A DNA stretch of 24,717 bases. Origin: a virus. Shown here piece after piece: positions 2,933 to 20,913 of the stretch (position 1 is its first letter; every line of letters begins with the position of its first letter). A program made the position numbers and the translations under genes. The stretch is from positions 1 through 24,717 of IMG/VR virus record IMGVR_UViG_3300010155_004294; one strand, 5' to 3'. Under the pieces are notes generated by a model, which was not told where the DNA came from, did no database searches, and saw nothing but the letters and a program-made list of their open reading frames with translations.

Positions 2933-2940
2933 TATTTATT
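2933..2940 (-). promoter_or_regulatory. T4-type late promoter box AATAAATA
   Basis: AATAAATA on the minus strand matches the T4-like late consensus (TATAAATA in T4, NATAAATA in marine relatives). It ends 6 nt before the ATG of the 729-aa fibre gene. In T4 the box spans about -13 to -6, so the predicted start falls within 1-2 nt of the ATG and the message would be essentially leaderless. Confidence 0.65.
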
Positions 2941-2948
2941 CTTATATG

Positions 2949-3176
2949 TCAATCTAAAGATAAAGTTTTGGTAAAATCGTATTCATCTATAGATTTACTA
3001 ATAAGGTTCTTTTGAAGTTTTACCGTTTTATTTATCTTTTTAGGATCTTCTTCGTTATATATGCATATACCATGGATGTAAGATTTTGTTTCTTTAGTAA
3101 CAGCAATAATACGTTTACTTTTTTTGTTTTTATTTAGAATGTAATATTTTATGTTGTGGCCGTTAATTTCAGACAT
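2949..3176 (-). CDS. Small Lys-rich protein of unknown function (75 aa)
   Basis: I do not recognise the family. It is a basic, Lys/Ile/Asn-rich 75-residue protein with no signal peptide or transmembrane segment. Its start overlaps the end of the upstream 217-aa gene by 8 nt, a translational-coupling arrangement that supports it being real. It sits between the portal region and the fibre genes, so it could be a small virion or assembly protein, but nothing in the sequence proves that. The fibre-gene late promoter lies just past its stop. Confidence 0.6.
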   Translation of the reverse strand: MSEINGHNIKYYILNKNKKSKRIIAVTKETKSYIHGICIYNEEDPKKINKTVKLQKNLISKSIDEYDFTKTLSLD

Positions 3177-3822
3177 TTTGAATTAATATTTCGTCTGGTT
3201 TTCCTTGTCTCTCCGTGTTAGTGCCTCCCAAAATAGTGCCTTCTTTTTTATCATAAGGCCCATCCCAATGGTATAGTACAACATGTTGATTATATTTAAT
3301 ATTTTTGTCAACCCCCGTATCCAAATATGCTGTTATAGCTTCTCCACCTACCTGTACCCGCAACCCGTAACCATTCATACAAAATATTTCATCTTCATTA
3401 GGCGTTACAACATTTACGGCAGGTTCGCTTTCTACTACTACAGGAGAATTTTCTACCTTTTCTACAACCTCTGTCTCTACTTTAACAAACGGTGTGTTAA
3501 TTAATTCTGCAGTTTCATAAAAATTTACACTACCTGCAATAGTTGTTACTTTTTTAATTTGTACAGGGGGTGGTTCGCTCACAAAAGATGTATCAATTGG
3601 TTTGTATTCATGTTTTGTATCAGAAGGTTTTTCGTATTTTTTACTATAAGGTGAAGATCTAAATCCTGTTTGAGTTTTAAGTTTATTTTTTACAGCTGTA
3701 ACCGTGTGTTCGGTAATAGATTCTGTCTTAATAATGTGTGTGTCATCCACCTTCTTTTTCTTTTTGAAGAACGAAAAGAATTTTAAAAACCATCGACGTA
3801 GCATACTACTATTTAAAATCAT
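3169..3822 (-). CDS. Unknown protein with basic N-terminus and conserved-looking C-terminal domain (217 aa)
   Basis: Residues 1-25 are hydrophobic and aromatic followed by a run of lysines (FFKKKKK), which might be a membrane-anchoring or positively charged tether. Residues about 26-145 are low in order, rich in Lys, Glu, Val, Thr and Pro. The last ~70 residues (from CMNGYGLRVQVGG onward) look like a compact beta-rich domain with HVVLYHWDG and GTILGG. I do not recognise the family. The ATG at 3822 is preferred because an AAGG Shine-Dalgarno-like sequence lies 4-5 nt upstream, unusual here since most starts lack one; Met7 is an alternative. Its position between portal and fibres suggests a virion or morphogenesis role, by inference only. 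Confidence 0.65.
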   Translation of the reverse strand: MILNSSMLRRWFLKFFSFFKKKKKVDDTHIIKTESITEHTVTAVKNKLKTQTGFRSSPYSKKYEKPSDTKHEYKPIDTSFVSEPPPVQIKKVTTIAGSVNFYETAELINTPFVKVETEVVEKVENSPVVVESEPAVNVVTPNEDEIFCMNGYGLRVQVGGEAITAYLDTGVDKNIKYNQHVVLYHWDGPYDKKEGTILGGTNTERQGKPDEILIQNV

Positions 3823-3830
3823 AAACCTTA

Positions 3831-3848
3831 TTAATCAACTATGATTAA
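3831..3848. repeat. Inverted repeat (7-bp stem, 4-nt loop) between genes
   Basis: TTAATCA at 3831-3837 and TGATTAA at 3842-3848 form a perfect 7-bp AT-rich stem with a 4-nt loop. It lies in the 32-nt gap between the 91-aa gene and the 217-aa gene, just upstream of the latter's AAGG ribosome-binding-like site. It has no clear U-tract, so it is a weak candidate for a terminator or a structured leader. Confidence 0.35.
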
Positions 3849-3854
3849 AAGATT

Positions 3855-4130
3855 TTAAACTATATTAGTAATAATTCCGTTGGTGATAGTTAAGACTACA
3901 TTCCCCGATGTGGTGCTAAGAGTTAAAGATTGGGTCGATCCCATTTTGGTGTCAATGTATAATTCTCCAGCGCTTAAAGAAACGGTACTAAGATTAGCGA
4001 AACCGGTTTCATTACCAATACCTGACGTGGCGTTATAAGATGAATCAATGAAATCGTTAAAATTGCTTTGTGAAGGAACATCGCCTTGCTCAAAGTAACC
4101 TTTTATTGTGCCTATTGGTTGTCTTGCCAT
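3855..4130 (-). CDS. Small virion-type protein, fibre/baseplate-like (91 aa)
   Basis: The N-terminal third (IGTIKGYFEQGDVPSQSNF followed by NDFIDSSYN) resembles a segment seen near the N-terminus of many phage fibre and tail-associated proteins, where a phrase of the form P(T/S)xxxFxDFIDS precedes a fibre. The rest is Ser/Thr/Gly/Leu-rich and beta-like, ending in a valine- and isoleucine-rich strand. Its own late-type box 7 nt before the ATG supports a structural role. It starts 10 nt after the portal stop. It could be a short fibre, a head-decoration protein or a trimerising tip; no specific homologue is named. Confidence 0.6.
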   Translation of the reverse strand: MARQPIGTIKGYFEQGDVPSQSNFNDFIDSSYNATSGIGNETGFANLSTVSLSAGELYIDTKMGSTQSLTLSTTSGNVVLTITNGIITNIV

Positions 4131-4137
4131 TTTATAT

Positions 4138-4145
4138 TATTTATG
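4138..4145 (-). promoter_or_regulatory. T4-type late promoter box CATAAATA
   Basis: CATAAATA on the minus strand overlaps the portal stop codon and ends 7 nt before the ATG of the 91-aa gene. The predicted transcription start is about 2 nt upstream of that ATG. Confidence 0.55.
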
Positions 4146-5940
4146 TAACACCTGCTTCTGCACCTGGGGCTACAGGAACATCTCCTTCACCACCGGTTAC
4201 CATAGGGCCACCGCCTTCTGGTGGCGGACCAAATTCTGGTGGTGTTTGTGGGTTTGGTATAGCGCTTCCCCCACCACCTAAATCGGCACCCATGTCACCA
4301 CCACCTTCAGCTGCTTCACCTGCAGCATTAGTCATTTGCTCTCTCCAATTAGGACCAGCTTGCTCAATTTGCATTAACTCCCATTGAAGTTCTTTATCTT
4401 TTCTTAAAAATTCTCTATTAGCTTTTACTTCTATATCTGTCCAATCTAAATATCTCTTTTGTGCCCATGTGTTAGAAACAAACTCACTAGCAGCTAAATT
4501 GTTATAATTGTTTGCTCTCAATTCTAACTTCTGCTGTTCTCTCATTTCAAAGAAATTAGTTGGAACATTAAATTCTAGATCAAGTTGCATCTCTTTGAGC
4601 TCGTATTTTTCCCAAATCTTTTTCAATTTTAGATGCGTTATAAAACCATTCTTTAAACCTGCAGCAAAATGCTGTTGCATACGAATTATAAATCTTGCAA
4701 ACTTAAGCTCTTCTCTTAATATTTCTGTACCATCCTGAAATGCCTGTTCTGGGTTTAATCTTGTTACAGGTACTTTTAACGACTTGTACAATTTCTTTAA
4801 GAAATACATTAAGTCTTCCAACTCCCCTAAGTTCTGACCACCAGCTAGTGTATTAACGCTCGTACCTTCACTTCCTGCTCTCTTAGCAAACCAAAATGAA
4901 TCAAGCATAGATTGAGGTGAAAATTTCTGCACTGTCCCGCTTTCGTCGGTATCGTACGTGTGTCTACTCCAATATTTTTGTTGAAGATTTCTTAGATATG
5001 CTTCAGCCTTGGGTGGTGACATATTCCCAACATCAACATTGAAAACTAACTTTTCAGGAGCTCTGACTAATCGATAAATTACAATTGCATCTTCGATTAA
5101 AGATAGTTGTCTATAAGCTCTTCTTGCATTTTCTAAAAACGGAAGTCTAATTGTTTTATTATCATTCCAAATTCCCGAATTAATATATGTGACTTGATTC
5201 TTATCCATTGGAATCAATTGCATATCTTCTATCTTTGTAGGATTAGATTCATTAAAAACAGGTTTTCTTAAAAGGTATCCTTGAACTATTGAATTTTGAA
5301 TGTTACCAAAAATTGGATCAATTAATTCTGTAGGTATTTGGACTACACCTAAAATACCTTCTTTAGGGTGGTCCTTATGAATAACATGCTCCCAATAAAC
5401 TTCTCCTTCAGTTAATAATGATCTGAAATATTCCCACCCTTTGTGGTCTAAATCAAAATATTGAACAAACTTTTGAAATTCTCCTTGAATCTCTTTTTGC
5501 TCGTGTGGTTTAAATTCCCTATCTCTAAAAAGTAATCTTACAATTCTACCTTCGTGATCAGTATTAATAATTTCATCACAAATTTCATCTAATGCATCAC
5601 CGACTTCAGCAAAGGCTGCCATAACCCTATAGTCTCTAATTCTTGCACCTTTATCCTGTTGGATATTTGCGTACATGAACTCCTGAAACCCTTTGTCCAT
5701 TGCAATATCACCAATAGCATTATTATTGATAATAGTAGAAGAAGAAATAGATTGTCTTTGAAGAGCATCTTCTCTATTACTTCCTTGATGTTGAAAAAGC
5801 TTATATTTCGGGTTTACCTCTGATAACGTATCTAATGTTTCGTAAGATTGATAAGGTAACCTACTCTGCACGAACTTCATTAAAGAACGTCCAAACGTGC
5901 CTTGATTACCTTTACCTTCTTGTATTACTTCTTTTGCCAT
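4141..5940 (-). CDS. 20: Portal vertex protein, T4 gp20 family
   Basis: This is the dodecameric portal at the DNA-packaging vertex of the capsid, which nucleates head assembly and is the channel for DNA entry and exit. T4 gp20 hallmarks are clear: RDYRVMAAFAEVGDALDEI at about 102-120, the RSLLTEGEVYWEHVIHKD segment at 173-190, the VIYRLVRAPEKLVFNVDVGN block at 287-306, and the FWFAKRAGSEGT and AGGQNLGELEDLMYF blocks at 349-380 followed by KKLYKSLKVPVTRL. At 599 aa it is longer than T4 gp20 (524 aa), mainly through a Gly/Pro/Ala-rich C-terminal tail from about residue 540. The ATG lies 1 nt after the stop of the upstream Thr-Pro protein, and no promoter is visible in that gap, so it is probably read from the late box at 6661-6668. 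Confidence 0.95.
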   Translation of the reverse strand: MAKEVIQEGKGNQGTFGRSLMKFVQSRLPYQSYETLDTLSEVNPKYKLFQHQGSNREDALQRQSISSSTIINNNAIGDIAMDKGFQEFMYANIQQDKGARIRDYRVMAAFAEVGDALDEICDEIINTDHEGRIVRLLFRDREFKPHEQKEIQGEFQKFVQYFDLDHKGWEYFRSLLTEGEVYWEHVIHKDHPKEGILGVVQIPTELIDPIFGNIQNSIVQGYLLRKPVFNESNPTKIEDMQLIPMDKNQVTYINSGIWNDNKTIRLPFLENARRAYRQLSLIEDAIVIYRLVRAPEKLVFNVDVGNMSPPKAEAYLRNLQQKYWSRHTYDTDESGTVQKFSPQSMLDSFWFAKRAGSEGTSVNTLAGGQNLGELEDLMYFLKKLYKSLKVPVTRLNPEQAFQDGTEILREELKFARFIIRMQQHFAAGLKNGFITHLKLKKIWEKYELKEMQLDLEFNVPTNFFEMREQQKLELRANNYNNLAASEFVSNTWAQKRYLDWTDIEVKANREFLRKDKELQWELMQIEQAGPNWREQMTNAAGEAAEGGGDMGADLGGGGSAIPNPQTPPEFGPPPEGGGPMVTGGEGDVPVAPGAEAGVT

Positions 5941-5941
5941 A

Positions 5942-6655
5942 TTATGTTGTTGATTTGGATGGTGAAATTGACACTGTTATCGATTTGGTCCTTGTTCTTG
6001 TATTTGTTTTTGTTCTGGTTTGTGTCCATGTTGGTGTTGGTGTCACAACAACGTTTGAAACCGTATTTGTATATGTTGGTGTCCTTGTTTGTGTTGGTGT
6101 CGAAGATCTTGTTTGTGTTGGTGTTGGTGTGAGTGGATCTGTGTTAGACGCCGTTATTGTGTGTGTCTGAGTTTGTGTTCTAGTTTGTGTTGGTGTTCTA
6201 GTTTGTGTTGGTGACTGAGTAATGCTCTTTGTAGGGGTAGGATAATTACTAGGAGATTGGGTAATAGATGTTGTTCTTGTCGGTGTCTGGGTTTGTGTTC
6301 TCGACATTGTTGGTGTTTGTGATCTAGTCTGTGTTTGGGTTGGTGATTGTGTAGTAGTATTGCTTGGTGTTCGAGATCTAGTTACGGTTCGTGTTGGTGT
6401 TACTGGTGGTGTTTGTGATCTAGTAACTGTATATGTAGGCGTTCTTGTTCCTGTAGGTGTTTGAGTTACTGATTTTGTTCTGGTTTTTGTAGGCGAAGGT
6501 GTAGGGGTTTGTGTAGGTGAAGGGGTTGGAGTTATTGTTCTTGTAGGTGTAGGCCATGGATAACCTTCAATATTAATTTTAGACCACTCAGTCCCTATTT
6601 CTGGACCAGTATTTTGACGTCTAATCAGGTCTCTAAATGTTGGAATACCCGCCAC
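5942..6655 (-). CDS. Thr-Pro repeat protein, probable virion fibre or extended linker (237 aa)
   Basis: Only about 35 N-terminal residues (MAGIPTFRDLIRRQ through EGYPWP) are of normal composition. The rest to the C-terminus is Thr, Pro, Gln, Arg and Ser in a degenerate hexapeptide rhythm of the PTQTRT type. Such chains are extended and often surface-exposed. The GTG at 6655 is chosen as start because a late box ends 5 nt before it and no ATG lies upstream in frame. It sits between the other Thr-Pro protein and the portal. No enzymatic motif is present. A virion role is inferred from the late box and neighbours; Thr-rich repeats are plausible O-glycosylation targets, which is speculative. Confidence 0.7.
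   Translation of the reverse strand: MAGIPTFRDLIRRQNTGPEIGTEWSKINIEGYPWPTPTRTITPTPSPTQTPTPSPTKTRTKSVTQTPTGTRTPTYTVTRSQTPPVTPTRTVTRSRTPSNTTTQSPTQTQTRSQTPTMSRTQTQTPTRTTSITQSPSNYPTPTKSITQSPTQTRTPTQTRTQTQTHTITASNTDPLTPTPTQTRSSTPTQTRTPTYTNTVSNVVVTPTPTWTQTRTKTNTRTRTKSITVSISPSKSTT
5945..6565 (-). repeat. Degenerate 18-bp coding repeat (Thr-Pro-Gln-Thr-Arg-Thr type)
   Basis: The coding strand repeats 6-bp and 18-bp units encoding PT, QT and RT dipeptides, making the top strand almost entirely G and T. Unit boundaries are imperfect, with insertions such as TTSITQSPSNYP. Slippage or recombination could change its length. Confidence 0.8.
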
Positions 6656-6660
6656 AATAT

Positions 6661-6668
6661 TATTTATT
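6661..6668 (-). promoter_or_regulatory. T4-type late promoter box AATAAATA
   Basis: AATAAATA ends 5 nt before the GTG start of the 237-aa Thr-Pro protein, placing the predicted +1 at the start codon itself. It lies in the 80-nt gap 6656-6735, the largest non-coding gap here; the rest of that gap shows only a 17-codon ORF that I do not consider a gene. The box probably also serves the portal gene. Confidence 0.65.
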
Positions 6669-6735: not shown

Positions 6736-7758
6736 TCACGCTATTGTTGGTGTTGGTGTTGGCGTTTGTGTCGGTGTTTGAGTTTGTGTAGCAGTTCGAG
6801 AAACTGTTCTTGATGGTGTTCTTGTAGGTGAAGCACCTCGCGTTTTAGTTTGGGTTTGGGTTCTAGTTTGTGTTGGTGTTTGTGTCGGTGTTTGTGTTTG
6901 TGTCGGAGTTTGGCTTGATGTACGTGTTCTAGTTCTAGTCTGTGTAGGTGTTCTTGTAGGAGAAGCTGTTTGGCTTGGTGTTTGTGTTCTTGTAGAAGTA
7001 ACAGTTTTGGTATATGTTTGAGTACGAGTCTGTGTTGGTGTCTGCGTTGGTGTTCTAGTTTGTGTTGGTGTGCGTGTCTGTGTTGGTGTTTGTGATCTTG
7101 TCCGCGTTACACCAATAGTGGGTGTTTGCGTTTGTGTTGGTGTTCTAGTTTGTGTTGGTGTTTGAGTTTTTGTTGATGTATTTGTTACATTTAGAGTAGT
7201 GGTTGGTGTGGGTGTTCTAGTTTGTGTTGATGTTCTAGTTTGCGTCGGTGTAGGTGTAGGTGTCCTTGGTACTAATCTAGATTGAACATAAAAAGGCGGT
7301 GCATTTGGATCTGTATTATAACCATAAGCACAACCTGGAAATTCCGTTTGGCCACCGGGTGATGTTATAATAATTTTAAATGGGCCGGTTGCTTTACCCG
7401 ATAACGCTGTTAGGTCTATACTAATTGTCTGCTTAGAATAATTTTTTAATACACCACCACCAAAATCTATCACGTTAAAACCACTAAACGCTGGGAATCT
7501 TGCCGATAAAGCTCTGTTAGTGGCAAAATAATTTACACTACTTAACGGGGTTGAAGATAAAGAACCTGAAAAGAAATCCGACGGGTTACCTGCACTTAAA
7601 AATGCTTGATAATATTTTGTAAGGCCTTTAACACCAGCTGATTTTAACCAAGGAGAATCAAATTCAAACACAGTGCGGTTTTCACTAAAAATAAGCTGAC
7701 CGCCATGTTGACCCGAAAGCGCATAATTAACTAATAAAGGTATTCTTTTTCTCACCAT
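6736..7758 (-). CDS. Virion-type protein: unique N-terminal domain plus long Thr-Pro repeat tail (340 aa)
   Basis: Residues 1 to about 165 look globular and beta-rich (for example SGQHGGQLIFSENRTVFEF and a later FKIIITSPGGQTEF). I do not recognise the family. Residues about 165-340 are a Thr/Pro/Gln/Arg repeat of PTQTRT type like that in the downstream gene, ending in TPTPTPTIA. The architecture of a small head plus long extended tail fits a fibre or whisker. The start overlaps the gp15-like gene by 7 nt, so it is probably translated from the late transcript started at 8565-8572. In T4, genes 16 to 19 lie between 15 and 20; here the two Thr-Pro genes occupy that place. Confidence 0.7.
   Translation of the reverse strand: MVRKRIPLLVNYALSGQHGGQLIFSENRTVFEFDSPWLKSAGVKGLTKYYQAFLSAGNPSDFFSGSLSSTPLSSVNYFATNRALSARFPAFSGFNVIDFGGGVLKNYSKQTISIDLTALSGKATGPFKIIITSPGGQTEFPGCAYGYNTDPNAPPFYVQSRLVPRTPTPTPTQTRTSTQTRTPTPTTTLNVTNTSTKTQTPTQTRTPTQTQTPTIGVTRTRSQTPTQTRTPTQTRTPTQTPTQTRTQTYTKTVTSTRTQTPSQTASPTRTPTQTRTRTRTSSQTPTQTQTPTQTPTQTRTQTQTKTRGASPTRTPSRTVSRTATQTQTPTQTPTPTPTIA
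6739..7262 (-). repeat. Degenerate 18-bp coding repeat, second copy region
   Basis: This is the same PTQTRT-type coding repeat as at 5945-6565, separated from it by the 80-nt gap and a short unique N-terminus. The top strand repeatedly reads like TGTGTTGGTGTTCTAGTT, an 18-bp unit. Two neighbouring genes with near-identical units could recombine. Confidence 0.8.
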
Positions 7759-8558
7759 TGGTCTTGCGTTTTTTTAAATATTTGTATTTCATCTGGGAAC
7801 GCCGATACGGTAATTGTATCCATATCAGCACTACCAGACAATTGTGATTTTAAAGTTGGGTAATTCGAATTTAAATTCGTACCTGAACTGACAGCATAAA
7901 AATTAGAATCAACCTTATAAATGTTATCAACCGCTGTTTCTGAAGCAGGAAATATCCAGCCCTTAATTGTAAATTTCGTATCAGCAACTACTCTAGCTTT
8001 CTGGCTTGCAGCCAATTCTATAGGATATGATAAATTTATATTCCCATCCCATAAAACTTCACTTCTTATTTCTTGAGCTTGAACTAAACTAACAAGATCT
8101 TTAGGAACAGGCCAACTTATAATTACATAAGGGTTAGTATAAGGTATAAAATTACTAAGAATTTGATCCATGTCCATCTGATATCGAGTTAAAACGGTAA
8201 AATTGACTGATATGTTAACGGGTGTTGGAGCATTATATTTACTATGAGCAAATTGTTCTTGATAATAAAAACCATTACCGCTTCCGCTTTGTCCTACAGC
8301 AGGTAATTTATTAAAAACTCTATCATTATCACGAGCAATGCCGTTTATATTAATAGCAACTACGGGGAAAGTTATTGTTTTTGCTTTATTAATAATATCA
8401 TACAACACTCTCTGCTTGGGAGAATACAAATACCTTACAAATATTCTATCTTTCTGAACCCTATTTTTATTATATCTTCCTATGACAATGGAATCAAAAG
8501 CATTCGCAAATTGAATGATTAAATCTTGTATCTCAAAATAGTTTGACTTCCAACGCAT
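7752..8558 (-). CDS. 15: Tail sheath stabiliser / tail completion protein, T4 gp15-like
   Basis: At 268 aa it is close to T4 gp15 (272 aa), the ring that caps the tail and sheath and joins the head. The recognised pattern of marine gp15 proteins is present in order: an N-terminal FAN-FDSIVIGRYN strand, a RYLYSPKQRVL segment near residue 43, TFPVVAININGI near 64, YNAPTPVNISVNFTVLTRY at about 109-127, MDQILSNFIPYTNPYVIISW next, and a C-terminal WDGNINLSYPIE followed by TKFTIKGWIFP. A late box ends 6 nt before the ATG. It lies one gene before the Thr-Pro proteins and the portal. The assignment is from recalled family pattern, not an alignment. Confidence 0.8.
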   Translation of the reverse strand: MRWKSNYFEIQDLIIQFANAFDSIVIGRYNKNRVQKDRIFVRYLYSPKQRVLYDIINKAKTITFPVVAININGIARDNDRVFNKLPAVGQSGSGNGFYYQEQFAHSKYNAPTPVNISVNFTVLTRYQMDMDQILSNFIPYTNPYVIISWPVPKDLVSLVQAQEIRSEVLWDGNINLSYPIELAASQKARVVADTKFTIKGWIFPASETAVDNIYKVDSNFYAVSSGTNLNSNYPTLKSQLSGSADMDTITVSAFPDEIQIFKKTQDQW

Positions 8559-8564: not shown

Positions 8565-8572
8565 TATTTATT
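8565..8572 (-). promoter_or_regulatory. T4-type late promoter box AATAAATA
   Basis: AATAAATA touches the helicase stop codon and ends 6 nt before the gp15-like ATG. The predicted +1 is 1 nt upstream of the ATG. It marks the boundary between the replication-type and virion-type halves of the window. Confidence 0.65.
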
Positions 8573-10200
8573 CAAACCAAACGTTCAATGAAATGTTTAG
8601 GTAGTTTGTTTTTATTTTGAGATATTAATGTTCTCGCTTTACCATCTAGTACATACGTTACTGCATAGTCTGTTTTAGATCTAGTACAACGGCCTGTAGT
8701 TTGTACTAATGTACATAACGCCTTATTTGCATACCAGTCTTTGTCCATATCAAACATCTTTTTAATTCTTTTATTTGATAAAGGTGGGTATGGCGTTTTA
8801 ACAATAATTTGGAATCTTCCCTTATCGTCAATTAAATCTGTACCAAAAGATAAAGAAGGTGAAACCAGAACCGTTGGTTCTGAACTACTAAAATGTTCTT
8901 TTAGTATTTGTTCATTAGTTGCAGTTTGTTCTCTAAATAAAAACCTATCACCAGTTAACCTGTTCTTTAAGTAATTGCATATTTCTAATGAATGGGTATG
9001 TACTATACCTTTTTCTCCTTTATGATGATCACATAAATCTTGAACATTCTTTGCTATAATTGGTAAAAACTTTTGTAGATTTTGATAATTAAGTACCGGT
9101 TTAGCAGAAAGATAAACCGGAGACTTACTCGGATCAAATACTGAAGGTGATTCTATATATTTGTATTTTTTAATACCTAAAACCTTAGCATACTGTTCGT
9201 GGTCTGTAATAGTAGCAGACATTAGTAAAATGTTATCACCATAGTCAAAAATATGCTTACTCAAATTGTCTATCTTAAGGGGTGTAAAACTAACTCCATC
9301 TGATTTTCGGTCAACAACGTACTCACATTTATGCCACGTTTGTTCAACAGTACTTAAATTACCATGTAAAGATTTTAAATATCTTAATTTTGAAACTTCA
9401 GGTAAAGACAAATTTATAACTTTATTGGTGCTTCTATTTGTGAGCTCATTTACTTTCTCACTTACTGAAAATATTAAACTAATAAGCCACCTATATTGTA
9501 TATCATACTTATCTGATTTTAATTTCGAAAAATCTATGTTGTTGAGCTCCAACCGTTTATAATCAACATCAGCACTAAATCTTCTAACCAATTCTTCTTC
9601 TAATTCAGAAGCTTCGTCACATACTAAAAAATTTTTACGCTTAACGTGCCCGGGTAGACTTAAAAACATTTTGTAATTAAGTACCGCAAAAGGGCTCGAT
9701 AGAGAAGTGTTTCTATTAGAAAAATAAGGACAACAATTTTTTTCCCAACACTCGTTTTTTAATTTAGGGGTAGTTACACAAGGAGCTGTCTCAACATCAT
9801 ATGTTTCATCTACACTACAAATATAATTTTGTTTGCCTTTTAATATTTCAATATCGTCAAATAATTTTTTATATTGATCTTGTAATTGCTTCGTGATGGT
9901 TAAAGCAAATGTACCCGATGCGGGTTCACCTAAACAGTCTGTTTCAAAAATATAATTACCGTGTTGGTCTTTTCGAAAAGCATTATAGGAATTAATTAGA
10001 CCTTTAAAATGGTCAGTAGGTGGTGTACCTACATTACCTAATGTTCTAGGAATAAAACTCTTACCGGTTCCAGTCGGTGCAGAAACAATTACAAATTTAT
10101 ACCCGTCATTAAACGCCTTTTCTACTTCTTTAAGAAGTTTAGTTTGAGAATTAGACGGGCTATAACCATCAGGAAACTTAGCAATATATTTGCTGAACAT
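8572..10200 (-). CDS. DinG/XPD-type superfamily 2 DNA helicase with Fe-S cluster cysteines (542 aa)
   Basis: Motif I (Walker A) is APTGTGKS at 41-48 and motif II is DEAS at 195-198, a DEAH-box variant. Between them Cys128, Cys141, Cys151 and Cys156 or 157 (the last just before PYF) match the four-cysteine Fe-S domain of XPD/DinG/FancJ helicases, which unwind DNA 5' to 3'. Motif III is SAT in LLMSATITD; motif V resembles SFGTDLIDDKGR and motif VI is QTTGRCTRSKTDYAVTYVLD with the catalytic arginines. The combination is specific to the Rad3/XPD/DinG group rather than the T4 UvsW or Dda helicases. It is preceded by a good sigma70-type promoter, suggesting early expression. It probably acts in phage DNA replication or repair. 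Confidence 0.85.
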   Translation of the reverse strand: MFSKYIAKFPDGYSPSNSQTKLLKEVEKAFNDGYKFVIVSAPTGTGKSFIPRTLGNVGTPPTDHFKGLINSYNAFRKDQHGNYIFETDCLGEPASGTFALTITKQLQDQYKKLFDDIEILKGKQNYICSVDETYDVETAPCVTTPKLKNECWEKNCCPYFSNRNTSLSSPFAVLNYKMFLSLPGHVKRKNFLVCDEASELEEELVRRFSADVDYKRLELNNIDFSKLKSDKYDIQYRWLISLIFSVSEKVNELTNRSTNKVINLSLPEVSKLRYLKSLHGNLSTVEQTWHKCEYVVDRKSDGVSFTPLKIDNLSKHIFDYGDNILLMSATITDHEQYAKVLGIKKYKYIESPSVFDPSKSPVYLSAKPVLNYQNLQKFLPIIAKNVQDLCDHHKGEKGIVHTHSLEICNYLKNRLTGDRFLFREQTATNEQILKEHFSSSEPTVLVSPSLSFGTDLIDDKGRFQIIVKTPYPPLSNKRIKKMFDMDKDWYANKALCTLVQTTGRCTRSKTDYAVTYVLDGKARTLISQNKNKLPKHFIERLV

Positions 10201-10207: not shown

Positions 10208-10235
10208 ATTATATATTAATACAATAAGCAGTCAA
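10208..10235 (-). promoter_or_regulatory. Sigma70-type promoter, leaderless geometry, for the helicase gene
   Basis: TTGACT at 10230-10235 and TATAAT at 10208-10213 (minus strand) are separated by 16 bp. The -10 ends exactly 7 nt before the helicase ATG, so +1 should fall at or next to the ATG. The region is the 35-nt gap after the preceding gene's stop. Confidence 0.7.
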
Positions 10236-13056: not shown

Positions 13057-13060
13057 AATA

Positions 13061-13654
13061 TTACTTAATTATTACTTTCGACGTCGCAATGAACATATCA
13101 TCATTCAATTCATAAAAAATTTTCTGTACATCTTTCATAAACTCTTCTGCTACTTCGTCATTAAATTCTGTACTAAATGCAAATGCAGGAGCCTTCTTAC
13201 CAGCTTTTATATTAAGAGCAGTATGACCTAAAGCAACACCAGATTTAACATAAGTGATGCTCACACTTACTTTGCCTTCTTGCTGAGTAACACCACCTTG
13301 TGTAAATTCTTTTTCTACCATAATATCATCACCATCCATCCTTACAGGACAATTCAAATATTTCGCACTACTTAGAAGATTAGCAATATGGGTGTTTAAA
13401 AGTCTTTGATATGCAACCGCACCAAATGCATTGTCTAAAATTGGAATCTCCCATAGAAAGTTTATTGCATCATCACTCCAAATAAATTCTTGTCGATCAA
13501 TATCTTCTTGATCAATCATTCCGTCTGCTAATACCTCCATTGGAGCTCTAAAACAAAGAATATTACCTATAGGTAATACTTTATCTTTAAAGAACTTATA
13601 TGCAAATCTGCCGTGAAGTAAGTTACCGTCGTATTTATCGATATTAAATTCCAT
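13061..13654 (-). CDS. DUF366-like phage protein of unknown function (197 aa)
   Basis: The arrangement RAPMEVLADGMIDQEDI at about 36-52, IWSDDAINFLWEIP next, then AVAYQRLLNTHIANLL, MDGDDIMV and KVSVSITYVKSGVALGHTALNI follows the DUF366 pattern, with conserved acidic clusters (DQEDI, SDDAINF) and the KVSVSI strand. Family members in bacteria and T4-like marine phages have no proved activity. The gene begins with a TATAAT 7 nt upstream, inside a palindrome, so it may open a sub-operon with the 49-aa protein, a glycosyltransferase and gp62. Confidence 0.6.
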   Translation of the reverse strand: MEFNIDKYDGNLLHGRFAYKFFKDKVLPIGNILCFRAPMEVLADGMIDQEDIDRQEFIWSDDAINFLWEIPILDNAFGAVAYQRLLNTHIANLLSSAKYLNCPVRMDGDDIMVEKEFTQGGVTQQEGKVSVSITYVKSGVALGHTALNIKAGKKAPAFAFSTEFNDEVAEEFMKDVQKIFYELNDDMFIATSKVIIK

Positions 13655-13656
13655 AT

Positions 13657-13671
13657 GATCTATTATAGATC
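13657..13671. repeat. Perfect 6-bp inverted repeat over the -10 box
   Basis: GATCTA at 13657-13662 and TAGATC at 13666-13671 are separated by 3 nt. The palindrome covers the TATAAT of the promoter at 13662-13689 and ends 2 nt from the start codon of the DUF366-like gene. It could be an operator or a methylation-sensitive GATC pair; both are untested ideas. Confidence 0.4.
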
Positions 13672-13689
13672 AAGCTACTCAGAATTCAA
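13662..13689 (-). promoter_or_regulatory. Sigma70-type promoter, leaderless geometry, for DUF366-like gene
   Basis: TTGAAT at 13684-13689 and TATAAT at 13662-13667 are 16 bp apart. The -10 ends 7 nt before the ATG at 13654, the same spacing as at the helicase gene. It lies at the end of the pyrophosphatase gene. Confidence 0.6.
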
Positions 13690-14833: not shown

Positions 14834-14840
14834 GACCTAT

Positions 14841-14846
14841 ATTATA
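14841..14846 (-). promoter_or_regulatory. TATAAT -10 element 7 nt upstream of the methyltransferase-like ATG
   Basis: A perfect TATAAT lies 7 nt before the ATG at 14833. No convincing -35 is seen at 16-17 bp. The spacing matches the two full sigma70-type promoters in this window, so it is listed with lower confidence. A weak AGG (ATAGGTC) also sits just before the ATG. Confidence 0.45.
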
Positions 14847-14847
14847 C

Positions 14848-15576
14848 TCACCAGTCACAAAAATCCCATTTAACTTTTTTAGGAATATAACCAACGTGTC
14901 CCCAAAAAGTAGGTTGCCATTTACTGTGTAAATTTAAAACTTTTGCTTTTAAATTTAACTTTTCTAAAATATAAATAAAGCACGTTTCAATCATATGGAT
15001 CTCTGATGCATTTTCAAAAATCCAACACCAATCAAATACACTGAACCCCCTGTATGGTTTTAATTTAATGATTTTTTTATCACCATCGTAGGGAACGTTT
15101 CTGGTAGTGTGATTTGGAAACGTACCGTATGTATCACTCACTACAACAAAATCATCACCGTCTTTAATTCTAAGAAAATCTTTTAACTCTTTTTCCTTTT
15201 CTTGATCTCTTCTAAAATTAAAATATAAATCCCAATCTTCAAACCCTTCTTGCATATTACAAAAATAATATTTTGCTTTCATTACAGACATATTAGTATA
15301 AATTTGATCTGAATGTTGTAACGGTACGTATAAAATGTCATCCTTTTTTACAATTTGATTTATATCAGTATTATATAATTCTGATGTATCTTTAAAATTA
15401 GATAAAGGAATGAAATTAATATTTTTCGCATCTAAATAATCATTAAGACAAGCACAATATTGGTCTTCAACTGGCCAACAAACTTCATCAACGGTACCTT
15501 CTAATAACTTTTTTACAATCTTTTGAGTATAAAAAACATCACCTATACCACCTGGTTGCCGTATTAAACATTTCAT
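14848..15576 (-). CDS. GT-B glycosyltransferase, GT9/heptosyltransferase-like (242 aa)
   Basis: The N-terminal motif IRQPGGIGDVFYTQKIV (residues 5-21) is the hallmark of ADP-heptose/GT9-type enzymes (RxxGxGDxLxxxP), and the C-terminal half holds the glycine- and acid-rich helix-strand layout (ENASEIHMIETCFIYILEKL) of the GT-B donor-binding domain. At 242 aa it is shorter than classic heptosyltransferases. A GTG at 15591 opens the frame 5 codons earlier, but the ATG at 15576 overlaps the previous stop as TAATG and gives the natural N-terminus. Donor and acceptor are unknown. Confidence 0.65.
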   Translation of the reverse strand: MKCLIRQPGGIGDVFYTQKIVKKLLEGTVDEVCWPVEDQYCACLNDYLDAKNINFIPLSNFKDTSELYNTDINQIVKKDDILYVPLQHSDQIYTNMSVMKAKYYFCNMQEGFEDWDLYFNFRRDQEKEKELKDFLRIKDGDDFVVVSDTYGTFPNHTTRNVPYDGDKKIIKLKPYRGFSVFDWCWIFENASEIHMIETCFIYILEKLNLKAKVLNLHSKWQPTFWGHVGYIPKKVKWDFCDW

Positions 15577-16367
15577 TATATTTCTAACCACTTAGGGTCA
15601 ATCAAATCTTGAGCTGGGGGCCCTTTTGGGCCAAACCATTTTTTAGGACAAGTTACAATTTCTTTTTCTTTACCTAAATATGCCCCCCATGATGAAAAAG
15701 AACTATTTCCCATTATAACCGAATCACACTCAGATAAAACACACATATCCATCAATTCATCAGACCCATTAGCTAAAACATTTTTACTATCGAACTTAAA
15801 TTCTTTTCTAACTTGAGTTTCATCATCGGTACAATACAAAAACAATGCATCTTTATCAAAATTTTCTTTAGCTTTATTATAATAATCGCTCCCTAAAATA
15901 GGAAATATCTGAGGATTTTTATAATAATCACCTCTTCTAATATGCACACCCACTACTTCAGTAGCTTGATATTTTTCTTTTAGTTTTCGTATAGCTTGCT
16001 TAGTTTTGGTTACACAATCAACATTAAATGTAAAAATATTATTCAATTCATCTCTATCTAAATTTTTAAAATATTTCCAGCTTTGAAAATAACCATCATA
16101 CACCACGTCGTGTTCAATACCCAAAAATGGTAATTTTTTATATTTGAAAGAAGGTTCTCTACATGCAATATGAAAAGGTAAATTTATTGTTTCTAAATTT
16201 TTGTATAAGCTCTTCTTATATGTTTTAGGGTGGTGACCTTGCATTGCACCAAACTCTAAACTATAGTTAATAACAAATTTTACATTATACTCTTTAGCAT
16301 GTGCATAAATTGTTGCAATTTGATATAACTGATTTCCTAACCCGCCTTTTAATTGTACTGTAATCAT
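15576..16367 (-). CDS. GT11-type alpha-1,2-fucosyltransferase-like protein (263 aa)
   Basis: GT11 enzymes transfer fucose from GDP-fucose. The hallmarks are present: GGLGNQLYQIA at 8-18, DGYFQSWKYF at 91-100, HIRRGDYY at 142-149 (the GDP-fucose-binding HxRRxD), and CDSVIMGNSSFSSWGAYLG at 214-232. Length (263 aa) is in the family range. The ATG at 16367 is chosen over an upstream Met in the same frame because it overlaps the preceding stop (TAATG) and leaves a clean N-terminus. In bacteria the enzyme adds terminal fucose to O-antigen or other glycans. Acceptor here is unknown; a lectin-like activity or another 6-deoxyhexose is possible. Confidence 0.88.
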   Translation of the reverse strand: MITVQLKGGLGNQLYQIATIYAHAKEYNVKFVINYSLEFGAMQGHHPKTYKKSLYKNLETINLPFHIACREPSFKYKKLPFLGIEHDVVYDGYFQSWKYFKNLDRDELNNIFTFNVDCVTKTKQAIRKLKEKYQATEVVGVHIRRGDYYKNPQIFPILGSDYYNKAKENFDKDALFLYCTDDETQVRKEFKFDSKNVLANGSDELMDMCVLSECDSVIMGNSSFSSWGAYLGKEKEIVTCPKKWFGPKGPPAQDLIDPKWLEI

Positions 16368-17194
16368 TAATCGAATAAAAATGGATACTCTTTGTATATC
16401 CAATCTTCAGGAACTCTAAATTCCTCTACTTTGTTAAAATTTTCTTCTACCGCGTCAAGCCTATAAGCATAAAAATCAATATCTATTTTATCGACTATGT
16501 CATCAAGCTCTTCAATAGTATCAAAATATATTATACCTTCCGGATTAAAAAATTTATTAACTGAAAATTTGTCACCGTAGTAAATAGGTATTGTTTTTGT
16601 AGCAAAAGCATCTAATAATTTTTCTGTCCAATAACCTCTAACAATTGCATTTTCAATAGTAACAGAAAAATAATATGGATTGAGACCGTCTTCTTTTTTT
16701 TCTAAAACATTCTCTGCGTACTTTCCATAACAATCCATTTTATCAGTAGTTTTATATCTATCTACTATCATATGTCTTAATCTATGACCTAAAGTGAATG
16801 CTTTATCAGAAGCAAAAATACTACAAAATTTTGATTTACTATCAATTCCTTCGTAATTATGAATCCAACATCTACCGTGAGGGTAATACAAATAATTTTC
16901 CCCCTTATCAATAAGTTTTTGATCAAAAGTTAAAACAAAATCATAAAGCCTATTGTTTTGTTCAATCCAATTATACATATGCGGACTAATACTTCTAGGT
17001 TCTAATAGCCAGGCCACTTTACGTTTCACACCACCTGCTTTATTTACATCTTCTAAACACAAATCAGTAATAAAACAACTTTTACTGACGGGTGCATTAT
17101 CAGCAACCCACTCAACAAATTTATTTTGTGCTAGATGGCATGATGACTTATCATACCCAATAAAATTTTTATCTCGTATATTTGCTTTTACCAT
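16367..17194 (-). CDS. GT10-type alpha-1,3-fucosyltransferase-like protein (275 aa)
   Basis: The C-terminal block from about residue 175 (FSVTIENAIVRGYWTEKLLDAF followed by TKTIPIYYG, ending near 207) is the signature of GT10 fucosyltransferases, in which FxxxxENxxxxxYxTEKxxxAxxxGxVPxYxG lines the GDP-fucose site. The N-terminal half is divergent, with KRKVAWLLEPRSISP at 58-71. It sits next to the GT11-like gene with a 1-nt overlap, so two potential fucosyltransferases are co-translated. The donor could be GDP-fucose or a related GDP-6-deoxy sugar; no donor-synthesis gene lies in this window. Confidence 0.82.
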   Translation of the reverse strand: MVKANIRDKNFIGYDKSSCHLAQNKFVEWVADNAPVSKSCFITDLCLEDVNKAGGVKRKVAWLLEPRSISPHMYNWIEQNNRLYDFVLTFDQKLIDKGENYLYYPHGRCWIHNYEGIDSKSKFCSIFASDKAFTLGHRLRHMIVDRYKTTDKMDCYGKYAENVLEKKEDGLNPYYFSVTIENAIVRGYWTEKLLDAFATKTIPIYYGDKFSVNKFFNPEGIIYFDTIEELDDIVDKIDIDFYAYRLDAVEENFNKVEEFRVPEDWIYKEYPFLFD

Positions 17195-18069
17195 TCCCAG
17201 CCTTTAATATGTTTCCACAACTCTTGCTCAGTCATTTCTTCTATTTTAGTACATTCCTTTTGATTTTCAAGATAAGGATCAAAAGTGTCTGGTCCACCAT
17301 CATATTTGGTAGTTTCTGCATCTGTCACAGTAGTATTTGTGTGAGGAAAATGATATAAAAAATCTAATCTCTGATTACATTTATGAATGTCGTATCCTAA
17401 AATTCTCATACGACTTACCATTTCACTATCTTCATAACCCCAGCCTACAAATTTTTCATTAAACCCTTTTATTTTTTTAAAATCTTTTCTTAACCCCAAC
17501 AAACAACCACCAACCGCCGTGCAGCCCATTACTTTACAGTATTCATAATCCATACGATCAGGCCATGAAGGGAACCCTCTTTTATAATTTTCTAAAGCCA
17601 TAGAAATCATTTTTAAATCAGGGCAAAACGTGTCAAGAGTTTTTATTGATTGTTGATTTCTAAAAATCTCCTTTGCTTTATAATTCAAATATAACGGCAT
17701 GCCGTTATAACACACACCAAAACCTGGTTCTTTCTTTAAAGTATCTTTTATTTTTATAATTTGTTCCGGTTTTGCAACACAATCTAAATCTAAACACAAT
17801 ATAAATTTTCTACTTGCTTCTCTTATACCTTTATTATATGAAGCGCACTTTTTAAAATGCAAGTCATTATATGAGTGTATTATTTTATCTTCTTCACATA
17901 AAGGTATGTATTGAGACAATACAGGGGTAATAGAATCTTCTACATAAATAAATCTACTATTTTTTGTGTGTTGTTTAAAAAACGCATAGGATAAAAAAGC
18001 ATTAATTGCTCTTTCGTGGTTATCTATCCTAGATGCTACAACTATATCAATGTCTTTAAAATCTATCAT
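17188..18069 (-). CDS. GT-A glycosyltransferase with GWGYED motif, GT2/GT7-like (293 aa)
   Basis: The N-terminal DIVVASRIDNHERA and the DLD at 94-96 in LCLDLDCVAKP give the nucleotide-sugar and metal site. FNEKFVGWGYEDSEM at about 203-217 is the acceptor/divalent-metal region seen in GT7 and the chondroitin-polymerase-type GT2 enzymes (GWGxED). The gene at 19005-19859 has the same motifs at the same residue numbers and is a tandem paralogue. Acceptor is unknown. It overlaps the GT10-like gene by 7 nt. Confidence 0.8.
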   Translation of the reverse strand: MIDFKDIDIVVASRIDNHERAINAFLSYAFFKQHTKNSRFIYVEDSITPVLSQYIPLCEEDKIIHSYNDLHFKKCASYNKGIREASRKFILCLDLDCVAKPEQIIKIKDTLKKEPGFGVCYNGMPLYLNYKAKEIFRNQQSIKTLDTFCPDLKMISMALENYKRGFPSWPDRMDYEYCKVMGCTAVGGCLLGLRKDFKKIKGFNEKFVGWGYEDSEMVSRMRILGYDIHKCNQRLDFLYHFPHTNTTVTDAETTKYDGGPDTFDPYLENQKECTKIEEMTEQELWKHIKGWEW

Positions 18070-18072
18070 ATA

Positions 18073-19005
18073 TTATTCTAAAAAGTTAGGTATACCGAGT
18101 TCTTGTCTTAGTAGCTTTACAGAATGAGACCCGTCACCGATATAACGATTGTCAAGTATAGTGTAAAACCAAGTATTGGGGTCAATTTTTTCTCTGTCTT
18201 CTCCCACTAGAAGCTTTTCTCTAACTATTCTATCAGCGTGGTATTTCAAATCACTTTCTTTTGTTGCAAAATCTCTAAACGGTACTATATCATTAAAAGC
18301 TTCTGTACGTCTTTGCAAAACGTCTACACCTGATCGATGATATAAAAAATCTCTTCCAGGGGTATATATATCATCAAAAGTAACATGTAGACTTTTGTCA
18401 TATAAATCAAACCCACCTTCTGGTTGACCCAAATTTGTATGCATGTGGCACTCAACTATTTCTTTATCGTAGTGACCTATCCTATCTTTTCCCGGGCCTT
18501 TAATTTTAATACGACGTTTAAATTCTTTTTTATTATTCGTATACATGTCATTAATCAAATGATTAAGAACTTCATTATCCGCAAAGCCAGGATATGCCAT
18601 CTTAGGAGCTAACTCAATAATTTGATCTACTATCCTTGCTGTTGTTTCATCATTTTTCCAAAATCCGTGTCCTGATGCACAATTAGGTAAAGGTGAACCT
18701 AATTGTTGATCTAAAATAAGAGAGTATTTGTTATCAATATAATCTTCAAACTTTTTATAAAAGTTCATTACCAGACAATCAGCATCTATCCAAAAAATCC
18801 AATCGTAATTAGGTAAATGTTTTTTTATGAAAGGGTATCTAGCAAAAAAAGATTTACCCTCTTCTTGATGAACACCATCAACATTAGAAGTAAAAAAGTG
18901 TATATCGTAATTGTGTTTTAAACAATATTGCTGCAAAATAGGCAACGTTATATTCAATAAATTTAACTGTTTTTCATCAGCCCCAGTTAATACCCCAATT
19001 TTCAT
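18073..19005 (-). CDS. GT34-like / DxD glycosyltransferase (310 aa)
   Basis: The N-terminus (MKIGVLTGADEKQ) and the run KKHLPNYDWIFWIDADCLVMN with the DAD at 74-76 match the galactosyltransferase/alpha-1,6-mannosyltransferase (GT34, GMA12/MNN10) arrangement, including a later histidine- and aspartate-bearing block (CHMHTNLG, then HVTFDDIY). GT34 members are retaining, so a different linkage from the GT2-type enzymes is expected. Met5 of the longest frame is taken as start, at 19005, because it overlaps the preceding stop as TAATG. The specific sugar is unknown. Confidence 0.7.
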   Translation of the reverse strand: MKIGVLTGADEKQLNLLNITLPILQQYCLKHNYDIHFFTSNVDGVHQEEGKSFFARYPFIKKHLPNYDWIFWIDADCLVMNFYKKFEDYIDNKYSLILDQQLGSPLPNCASGHGFWKNDETTARIVDQIIELAPKMAYPGFADNEVLNHLINDMYTNNKKEFKRRIKIKGPGKDRIGHYDKEIVECHMHTNLGQPEGGFDLYDKSLHVTFDDIYTPGRDFLYHRSGVDVLQRRTEAFNDIVPFRDFATKESDLKYHADRIVREKLLVGEDREKIDPNTWFYTILDNRYIGDGSHSVKLLRQELGIPNFLE

Positions 19006-19859
19006 TACATTACCCAACTTCTTGTATATTCTTTTAACTCGTCAGAAGAAGAAGTTTCAACATGAGTCATAATTTTTTTATTTTCTTTATAAAAGGGTTG
19101 TTTTTCCTTTTCTGAACCAGTGCCGTCAAAATGATGTAAATGCCATATAACTTTACCTTCACCTTCAATTCTACCTACACCATAACCTAACTTCGCCATT
19201 CTATAGGGGGCTTCATCGTCCTCATATCCCCAACCTAAAAAATTAGGATTATATCCATTACATCTAATCATATTATCTCTTCTACCCATTACACAACCAC
19301 CTTTACTTGATACGTGGCCAATCATAACGCCTTCATACACATTATCAATATAACTAAACAGGGTTTCTAATGAACTATCTCTAGATCCGATATATGTTTT
19401 AAATTTTTCTGGTATTTTTAAATCACCATAATCTAAAGACGAACAAAATTTATCTTTTAATTCTTTTTCAGCACATAAAAACAACCCGTTATATGGATAT
19501 AACAAACAACTATTTTTATCTTTAGATAAAAGGTTTGAAGTTTCTAAAATTTGCTTTGGGTGAATTATTACATCAACGTCAATAAGATTTAAAATATTTG
19601 TTTTGGCTAATTTAATTCCTTTATTGAACCCTTCACCTTTTCGCCATTCGGTATCACTTTTAGAAAATATACATACGTCATCTTTATGCAAATCTAATAA
19701 AACGGGTACCTTACATTCACTATCATCTTCTATAAAAATATGAATATAATTTTTACATGTTTTTCTATAATAGCCATGCATAGCTTTTAAATTGTTTTTT
19801 CGTTCTTCGTTGTCTATTCTAACAAAGGTTAAAAAAGTTATACCTTTTAAGTCATACAT
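19005..19859 (-). CDS. GT-A glycosyltransferase with GWGYED motif, tandem paralogue (284 aa)
   Basis: It has the same layout as the gene at 17188-18069: an N-terminal strand ending in RIDNEERKNN, DVD at 94-96, a Gly-Gly-Cys pair at about 187-189 and NPNFLGWGYEDDE at about 204-216. It is likely a duplicated, diverged sugar transferase acting at a different step. It overlaps the GT2-like gene upstream by 8 nt and the GT34-like gene downstream by 1 nt. Confidence 0.8.
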   Translation of the reverse strand: MYDLKGITFLTFVRIDNEERKNNLKAMHGYYRKTCKNYIHIFIEDDSECKVPVLLDLHKDDVCIFSKSDTEWRKGEGFNKGIKLAKTNILNLIDVDVIIHPKQILETSNLLSKDKNSCLLYPYNGLFLCAEKELKDKFCSSLDYGDLKIPEKFKTYIGSRDSSLETLFSYIDNVYEGVMIGHVSSKGGCVMGRRDNMIRCNGYNPNFLGWGYEDDEAPYRMAKLGYGVGRIEGEGKVIWHLHHFDGTGSEKEKQPFYKENKKIMTHVETSSSDELKEYTRSWVM

Positions 19860-20874
19860 TGTTTTTTATACCTTTCAATATTTTACAAACATCTTCAAAC
19901 AATAAATCAGGAACCGGTTTGTCGTAAGCAGGCTTATAACCGTGTTTGTCTAAAAATATCTCAACAGCTTCCCATATATTTTTTTCCCAATCTGGTCGAC
20001 CTCTAATAGTGCTGTTATCTTCACTACAGGCCAGTTCATCTAGATAATCATAACTATTAGCTACGTCAGCCCACCACCAATAAGGAGTAGACATTTTTTC
20101 TTTTGCTAACATATATGAATGATCAACGTGTTCAAAAGCATTAATATAGCGGTTATCAAACAAACCAACCTTTTCAAAACAACTCCTATGATAATATGTA
20201 AAAGCACCCACACAATGTCTATTAAGAGCAATTGAGACACCATCACCATAATCAACTATTTTTCTTGGAGAAGGTTTGCCATTTCTTTTATTAGCTGGTC
20301 CATGGTAACCATACATTAAATGTTTTAACCCTGTTTTCTTACTTACTTCAATATACTTTTCAAAAACGTTCTCATCTTTGATTATAATATCGTCTTCCAT
20401 TATAAACATATGATCTACACCTTGTTTATCACCCGGCCAATTCTGCAATTCTTGAGAATGACCAGTTTTTAGCAGTTCTGTAAATGCCCAGTTTTTAGCA
20501 AAACCAACACCTCTATTACCGCCAGTATAAAAATAATTACCACAAAGGCCGTTTTTACTATATACAAACCTTCTTGGGCCATGATCTGATTTATCTTTAA
20601 AATCTGCACTATCACCATCATTAATAAGAACGATATAATCAATTTTATGTCTAGGTATAGAATCTAATACTTTTTTTAAAAAATCTTCTCGATTACAAGT
20701 AACAATACCTAACCCTACGGTATCTTTAAGGGGGGGAGGTTTCCAAGATGGTATTGTCCCCATCCAGTCCCAATATGCAGAGCGCGCTGCGATCGCGGCC
20801 GGTCTTTCAGCATTAATACCAACCAGTTTCCCTTGACCGTTTAGTATCTGTTGAGGTGACTTAGAAATTGCCAT
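19852..20874 (-). CDS. GT2-like glycosyltransferase heading the sugar operon (340 aa)
   Basis: TVGLGIVTCNREDFLKKVLDSI (52-73), the GGNRGVGFAKN motif (118-128) and MEDDI with the EDD at 160-162 form a GT2 GT-A fold. A preceding, atypical ~50-residue N-terminal region (MAISKSPQQILNGQ) is unlike most GT2 members. The frame is open to an ATG at 20895, but a full sigma70-type promoter has its -10 at 20886-20891, downstream of that ATG. The start is therefore placed at 20874, giving a leader of about 4-5 nt. It is the promoter-proximal gene of a coupled run ending at 14848 or further. Confidence 0.78.
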   Translation of the reverse strand: MAISKSPQQILNGQGKLVGINAERPAAIAARSAYWDWMGTIPSWKPPPLKDTVGLGIVTCNREDFLKKVLDSIPRHKIDYIVLINDGDSADFKDKSDHGPRRFVYSKNGLCGNYFYTGGNRGVGFAKNWAFTELLKTGHSQELQNWPGDKQGVDHMFIMEDDIIIKDENVFEKYIEVSKKTGLKHLMYGYHGPANKRNGKPSPRKIVDYGDGVSIALNRHCVGAFTYYHRSCFEKVGLFDNRYINAFEHVDHSYMLAKEKMSTPYWWWADVANSYDYLDELACSEDNSTIRGRPDWEKNIWEAVEIFLDKHGYKPAYDKPVPDLLFEDVCKILKGIKNNV

Positions 20875-20878
20875 TGTA

Positions 20879-20886
20879 CATAAATA
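20879..20886 (+). promoter_or_regulatory. Second late-type CATAAATA box, tandem with 20893
   Basis: CATAAATA on the plus strand, 14 bp upstream of the box at 20893-20900. Its predicted start (near 20892) would give a 15-nt leader for the plus gene. It overlaps the minus-strand early -10 by 1 bp. It may be a chance match or a real tandem site. Confidence 0.35.
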
Positions 20887-20913
20887 TTTTAGCATAAATA
20901 ATTAAAATGTCAA
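20886..20913 (-). promoter_or_regulatory. Sigma70-type promoter for the sugar-transfer operon
   Basis: TTGACA (perfect) at 20908-20913 and TAAAAT (5 of 6) at 20886-20891, 16 bp apart, on the minus strand. The -35 lies over the first codons of the plus-strand gene. The predicted +1 falls near 20879, a few nt before the ATG at 20874. It is interleaved with the plus late box. Confidence 0.65.
20893..20900 (+). promoter_or_regulatory. T4-type late promoter box CATAAATA for the plus-strand gene
   Basis: CATAAATA ends 6 nt before the ATG at 20907, placing the predicted +1 1 nt upstream of the start codon. It is the only late box serving a plus-strand gene and lies inside the spacer of the minus-strand early promoter. 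Confidence 0.65.

Follow-up and report, generated by a model that had tools for sequence, protein, structure and literature searches.

The virus record IMGVR_UViG_3300010155_004294 comprises a genome fragment of 24,717 base pairs (bp), here called the window, i.e. the whole stretch of DNA analysed, with 34% GC and genes that are mostly oriented on the minus strand. The T4 core is represented in the window by the portal protein gp20, the tail sheath stabilizer/terminator gp15 and a gp62-like gene, and in its relatives by gp17, 18, 20, 21, 23, 25, 43, 46, 47, 41, 61, uvsX, uvsW and 32, as detected with core-gene profiles derived from T4 and five further isolates. The phage belongs to the T4 superfamily, homologues of both the virion and the replication core being present. 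Five genes in the window begin 5 to 7 nucleotides (nt) downstream of the sequence ATAAATA, the core of the T4 late promoter. From the position of such boxes here and in related contigs we consider it highly probable that promoter-proximal genes of a widespread uncultured Far-T4-like clade, early as well as late, are expressed from leaderless or near-leaderless mRNAs (0-2 nt), the late ones from these boxes. The boxes and their genes are as follows:

737..2926, minus strand: protein of 729 amino acids (aa) with an N-terminal Mtd_N (tail-fibre/receptor-binding) domain (Pfam PF18454, E 5e-10), predicted leaderless
2933..2939, minus strand: predicted late-promoter box ATAAATA, 6 nt before the start at 2926, kept in 6/11 orthologues at a gap of 4-8 nt
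3855..4130, minus strand: 91-aa protein downstream of gp20, function not assigned, predicted near-leaderless
4138..4144, minus strand: predicted late-promoter box ATAAATA, 7 nt before the start at 4130, overlapping the gp20 stop codon, kept in 7/7 orthologues
4141..5940, minus strand: gp20 portal protein (phrog_213, E 8e-105)
5942..6655, minus strand: 237-aa protein with GTG start, phrog_15511 (function not assigned), predicted leaderless
6661..6667, minus strand: predicted late-promoter box ATAAATA, 5 nt before the GTG start at 6655, kept in 8/8 orthologues, all GTG
7752..8558, minus strand: gp15 tail sheath stabilizer/terminator (phrog_227, E 6.5e-15, and T4 gp15 profile), predicted leaderless
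8565..8571, minus strand: predicted late-promoter box ATAAATA, 6 nt before the start at 8558, TAAATA at a gap of 4-8 nt in 42/52 orthologues
20880..20886, plus strand: second ATAAATA, 14 nt further upstream of the box at 20894..20900, with a 20-nt gap to the start at 20907
20894..20900, plus strand: predicted late-promoter box ATAAATA, 6 nt before the start at 20907
20907..22019, plus strand: 370-aa protein, function not assigned, predicted leaderless; three relatives have TAAATA at a gap of 4-8 nt

The coordinates given in the initial annotation of this DNA, with boxes ending 6, 7, 5, 6 and 6 nt before the starts at 2926, 4130, 6655, 8558 and 20907, were confirmed. Its statement that all five genes are of virion type is only partly borne out: it holds for gp15 and the Mtd_N gene, and family searches gave no informative match for those starting at 4130, 6655 and 20907; the first two of these keep the box in all orthologues compared, and the gene at 4130 lies just after gp20. 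The gp20 start itself lacks an exact box in the window, and TAAATA occurs at a gap of 4-8 nt in 28 of 63 gp20 orthologues. The base preceding the core is A or C, never T, in all five window boxes, hence these are of the NATAAATA type as in cyanophages.

The motif is not over-represented in the window as a whole, since it occurs 12 times on both strands compared to 17.9 expected from dinucleotide shuffles; the unusual feature is its position. Five of the 12 copies are in register (5-7 nt), and one more (20880-20886) ends 20 nt before a start. When the 40-nt stretch upstream of each gene was shuffled separately, a mean of 0.056 in-register boxes was obtained and five were reached in none of 20,000 shuffles, which bears out the earlier estimate that this register is very unlikely to arise by chance. 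Moreover, the Shine-Dalgarno (SD)-like motifs GGAG, GAGG, AGGA and AAGG are all absent from the 25 nt upstream of each of the five boxed starts, in agreement with the claim that no SD site fits into the gap.

The initial annotation had proposed to count box-to-start distances over relatives, with a sharp peak at 5-7 nt as the supporting outcome, and such a peak was found. The count covered the window and eleven relatives, together twelve contigs (1.12 Mb), in which genes were taken as the longest open reading frames and called blind to the box. The gaps between ATAAATA and start amounted to 97, 51 and 26 cases at 5, 6 and 7 nt. By comparison, every gap from 0 to 4 nt had 1-3 cases, and between 25 and 70 nt there were about 0.6 per position. 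The eleven relatives contain 169 in-register boxes versus 5.7 in shuffles (maximum 13). Other permutations of five A and two T produced no comparable sharp peak, only shifted echoes where the motif overlaps the box. The peak was replicated in 68 further loci outside the fetched genomes (87, 44 and 14 at 5, 6 and 7 nt), and it remained after genes with a close upstream neighbour had been excluded; therefore, overlap with stop codons is not its cause. Because the contigs are related (two of them, G002 and G004, have an identical portal) and the counts are thus not fully independent, conservation was also judged by orthologues that differ in up to half of their residues and whose N-termini align at the start. 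The box is conserved in 42/52 of the orthologues of gp15, in 7/7 of the 91-aa gene and in 8/8 of the GTG-initiated 237-aa gene. Non-ATG starts account for 27 of 97 cases at 5 nt, 7 of 51 at 6 nt and 0 of 26 at 7 nt, and GTG is commoner at the exact 5-nt gap than at 7 nt (Fisher 0.001). This excess is consistent with a transcription start (+1) at the first nucleotide of the start codon.

The distribution of the boxes among genes argues for a function in late transcription. A TAAATA-type box stands at the start of 57/100 virion core genes versus 4/81 early core genes (Fisher 8e-15), and the late-box class shows no TTGA peak at -35 in the twelve contigs; T4 late promoters likewise lack a -35 element (PMC2988020). 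A gene for gp55 (phrog_234, E 1e-26 to 1e-28) was found in all four contigs longer than 150 kb and in one further contig (G006, G009, G014, G015, G017), with a conserved sigma2-like region. The gp55 of G006 had been flagged as stopping inside; this was rejected, the called gene being an intact 198-codon frame matched by the T4 gp55 profile. Judged from their sequence, the boxes are gp55-type late promoters.

The late machinery appears altered compared to T4. The sliding clamp gp45 (phrog_223) was detected in none of six contigs, where a diverged clamp could escape the profiles, gp33 (phrog_254) gave no credible match in the six, and the C-termini of the five gp55 proteins carry no LDFL clamp-binding motif. 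T4 gp55 remains active in basal transcription when truncated (PMC7892883); therefore, late boxes can work without a clamp, and late transcription may be uncoupled from it in this clade. The gp43 proteins of the same five contigs end in QTDLFELL/QADLFELL-like sequences, i.e. Q(T/A)DLFELL and not the SLDFLF of T4. This C-terminus resembles bacterial beta-clamp-binding motifs, which is no more than a lead, and the phages may use a bacterial-type clamp. Five contigs (G009, G010, G014, G015, G016) also encode the ribosomal protein bS21, which could alter the choice of phage mRNA by the ribosome.

Once the late boxes were removed, the strongest signal was TATAAT located 6 nt before starts. At this gap the twelve contigs contain 41 copies of TATAAT (background 2.1) and 14 of TATACT (background 1.0), and 56 of the 105 -10 boxes found at gaps of 5-8 nt have TTGA 17-19 nt upstream. 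This sigma70-type class marks uvsX, gp43, gp41 and gp61 as well as the helicase and the DUF366 gene of the window:

8572..10200, minus strand: DNA helicase, early-type (phrog_2488, E 1e-92), predicted leaderless from a sigma70 promoter
10208..10213, minus strand: sigma70-type -10 TATAAT, 7 nt before the start at 10200, with -35 TTGACT at 10230-10235 and a 16-bp spacer
13061..13654, minus strand: DUF366 protein (Pfam PF04017, E 7e-19), predicted leaderless from a sigma70 promoter
13662..13667, minus strand: sigma70-type -10 TATAAT, 7 nt before the start at 13654, with -35 TTGAAT at 13684-13689
14841..14846, minus strand: candidate -10 TATAAT, 7 nt before the start at 14833, no clear -35

Among helicase orthologues, 34/35 have a -10-like box at a gap of 5-8 nt and 0/35 a late box; a -10-like box is likewise present in 26/31 orthologues of the DUF366 gene. 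In one relative (G014:C1:1-8100) short early genes follow each other in series, each with a near-identical promoter (CTTGAA-TTCC...TTCC-TATACT-6 nt-ATG), likely a repeated early promoter cassette. The DUF366 gene lies in a region between the helicase and the structural genes (12114-20895) that looks like a metabolic/glycosylation island with glycosyltransferases and an inorganic pyrophosphatase. The Bacteroidota-type promoter TAnnTTTG was not enriched near starts (0-2 per position compared to a background of 1.26), which argues against a Bacteroidota-type sigma factor at early genes despite published predictions of Flavobacteriales as hosts. Sigma70-like early promoters are hard to reconcile with these predictions unless early transcription is modified.

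The -10 element of sigma70 promoters spans -12 to -7. The T4 late box spans -13 to -6 (PMC2988020). Therefore, the modal gaps of 6 nt behind TATAAT and 5 nt behind the late box both put +1 on the start codon. This apparent convergence of two unrelated promoter geometries on one base is the strongest argument for leaderless mRNA. In addition, SD-like motifs precede only 3-10% of the clade genes versus 4-16% in the background, and 28-55% of the genes in T4, P-SSM4, phiN3, F371, ValKK3 and HTVC008M. Next to the positional peaks, orthologue conservation, late/early specificity, lack of SD sites and gp55 in relatives, all of which are read from sequence, the proposed mechanism draws on T4 geometry for +1 and would run as follows. 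At a 5-nt gap the transcript would begin with the start codon itself, for example with the G of the GTG start at 6655, and at 6-7 nt one or two bases earlier; the ribosome would then select the 5'-terminal start codon without an SD site. A host-type sigma70 promoter (TTGA, about 16 bp, TATAAT, 6 nt, ATG) would serve early genes by the same design. Leaderless initiation might thus be the default of the entire phage, probably matching its host; perhaps the host, like the whole phage, does without SD initiation.

Several observations weigh against this interpretation. The +1 position is extrapolated from T4 and sigma70 geometry. The window contig, a fragment, lacks gp55, and with gp45 and gp33 undetected in the relatives a T4-like activation cannot be assumed. 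Furthermore, an exact TAAATA box is missing from the start of 43/100 late core genes. Box-less genes overlap the preceding gene in 40% of cases versus 3-7% of boxed genes, which suggests that they are mostly operon-internal and presumably translated by coupling. Finally, gp23, which is expected among the most expressed late genes, has in most relatives no adjacent box and instead a conserved leader of about 70-110 nt.

This leader is common to 22 distinct sequences and contains a small hairpin, TTGAGGG-loop-CCCTGAA(C/T)AG, in which compensatory changes support the pairing (9 double-changed cells versus 3.4 in shuffles). It is followed by AAGGTCGACA, and an AGGTCGA motif is present, both at about 30 nt from the start. 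Examples are found in the upstream regions L121, L140, L079, L070 and L033 and in G009 at about 124870-124942, and a variant occurs in a second sub-clade (L032, L112, L097). A search of Rfam matched no family, either in the window or near the gp23 leaders. In view of the structured gp23 leader the late programme is not wholly leaderless. The proposal of the initial annotation, a late programme translated from leaderless mRNAs, is thus supported by the peak, the orthologue conservation and the late specificity, and does not extend to the entire late programme; on the other hand its restriction to late genes was too narrow, since sigma70 early promoters abut starts likewise, with operon-internal genes and gp23 as exceptions. 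Taken together, it is conceivable, though as a whole rather doubtful, that the clade gave up SD initiation in both promoter classes, that gp55 picks the transcript and the start codon at once, that late transcription runs uncoupled from the clamp, and that gp23 is set apart by its structured leader.

Alternatively, the boxes could be late promoters on which a diverged holoenzyme starts elsewhere, giving leaders of several nt or intragenic starts. The altered machinery, i.e. gp55 without the T4 C-terminal clamp-binding motif and the missing gp45 and gp33, speaks for this possibility. However, the distance from box to +1 is set by the active site of RNA polymerase (RNAP) and varies by only about 1-2 nt. 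Moreover, the sigma2-like region of gp55 is conserved, the sigma70 class independently indicates the same base, and C-terminally truncated T4 gp55 initiates basal transcription normally (PMC7892883), so that we regard such displaced starts as improbable. It might also be that ATAAATA is an A/U-rich translation-initiation element of the S1 or Bacteroidota type, with transcription initiating at a greater distance from the gene. Bacteroidota are known to have A-rich sequences upstream of their genes, and the clade lacks SD sites like non-SD bacteria. Host predictions for Far-T4 phages in the literature favour Flavobacteriales (PMC7198788, PMC13037479). However, the box is specific for virion genes and nearly missing from early genes, which also need translation and bear another motif, TATAAT with TTGA at promoter spacing; in addition, genes without box are mostly operon-internal, and the box sequence is the known late box of T4 and cyanophages. 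A role in translation is therefore very unlikely. The notion that chance or annotation creates the register, through AT-rich DNA (34% GC), upstream TAA stops such as that of gp20 inside the box at 4138-4144, or wrong starts, can be dismissed in the light of the shuffle tests in the window and its relatives, the persistence of the peak in genes without close upstream neighbours, the shared start of orthologue N-termini and a gene caller blind to the boxes.

The preferred interpretation of leaderless transcripts concerns a clade that is distant from cultured phages. Their portals share at most about 34% identity with the window portal, and closer relatives exist in hundreds of uncultured contigs. 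In portal and capsid trees the clade is monophyletic, fully supported and long-branched, and lies outside T4, ValKK3, P-SSM4, HTVC008M, phiN3 and F371; the placement of RM378 is unsure. In tree position, habitat and GC content the clade agrees with the Far-T4 phages described in the literature (PMC4360716, PMC7198788), to which it probably belongs. Host searches that used the portal protein and a portal alignment of 22 rows in two scans of genome contigs found no related contig, and the comparison of the pyrophosphatase with solved structures was uninformative.

T4 late transcription is the textbook case of a promoter that is separate from the ribosome-binding site, and an abundant aquatic clade appears to fuse both, in two promoter classes with different geometries. 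If true, this predicts host ribosomes that readily start on leaderless mRNA, which constrains the host, and gives a rule for gene starts in genomes of the clade, namely to count 5 nt from the box. The remark that such a design is not described for a T4-type phage agrees with our search of open-licence papers, in which no description of leaderless gp55-type late promoters was found. Phage transcripts have been described as often leaderless in general (PMC5312081), and leaderless genes with an adjacent -10 are already known in bacteria (PMC12340547, PMC3160421).

Compared with known systems, the late promoters of T4 (gp55-RNAP; TATAAATA at -13 to -6) have the same core box, no -35 and virion genes on either strand behind them, and a gp55 homologue is also present in relatives of the window. 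However, in T4 the distance from box to start is about 12-30 nt and genes have SD sites, in contrast to 5-7 nt without SD in the clade, and the clade differs further in the gp55 tail and the undetected gp45 and gp33. No box at 5-7 nt was found in T4, ValKK3 and phiN3, where boxes are mostly about 12-34 nt upstream. The box sequence of the clade is that of the marine cyanomyoviruses (S-PM2, Syn9, P-SSM4), whose NATAAATA late promoters accept any base at the first position (PMC2984593), whereas in P-SSM4 the boxes are mostly 19-30 nt upstream together with SD sites, and 3 stand at 5-6 nt. The 'TA-led' leaderless genes of Actinobacteria and others (PMC12340547, PMC3160421) have a -10 at a fixed short distance and no SD, which matches the early TATAAT class; they differ in being cellular and served by a housekeeping sigma factor, whereas the clade also uses the box of a phage alternative sigma factor and has a clear -35 in its sigma70 class. 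The Far-T4 phages of Roux et al. 2015 (PMC4360716; RM378) are uncultured aquatic members of the T4 superfamily outside near-T4 and cyano-T4, with about 33% GC and, like the clade, T4-like gp17, gp20, gp23 and replication genes; the word 'promoter' is absent from the text of that paper. Rhodothermus phage RM378 shares the lack of SD use but has its own motif TTATTTAA, mostly ending 7 nt before starts (L219-L221; 4414-5055, 29547-29996, 54965-56341), possibly another leaderless promoter class; it was rejected as a cultured model because a different box is not the same promoter. Finally, the cultured marine pelagimyophages HTVC008M (NC_020484) and Mosig (MT647606) and the methylophage Melnitz (MZ577097) carry late-type boxes at a gap of exactly 5 nt, numbering 10, 6 and 3, respectively (Poisson 9e-12, 8e-6 and 0.006), and for HTVC008M the GenBank starts match those used for the eight genes in the annotated stretch. 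Genes of HTVC008M with a 5-nt gap include 18392-18916, 18943-19440 and 19456-20607. In these phages the 5-nt mode is a minority, other boxes are more distant from the start and SD sites precede 45-49% of genes, in contrast to the clade. Cultured phages with such a minority mode make the question of leaderless late mRNAs directly testable.

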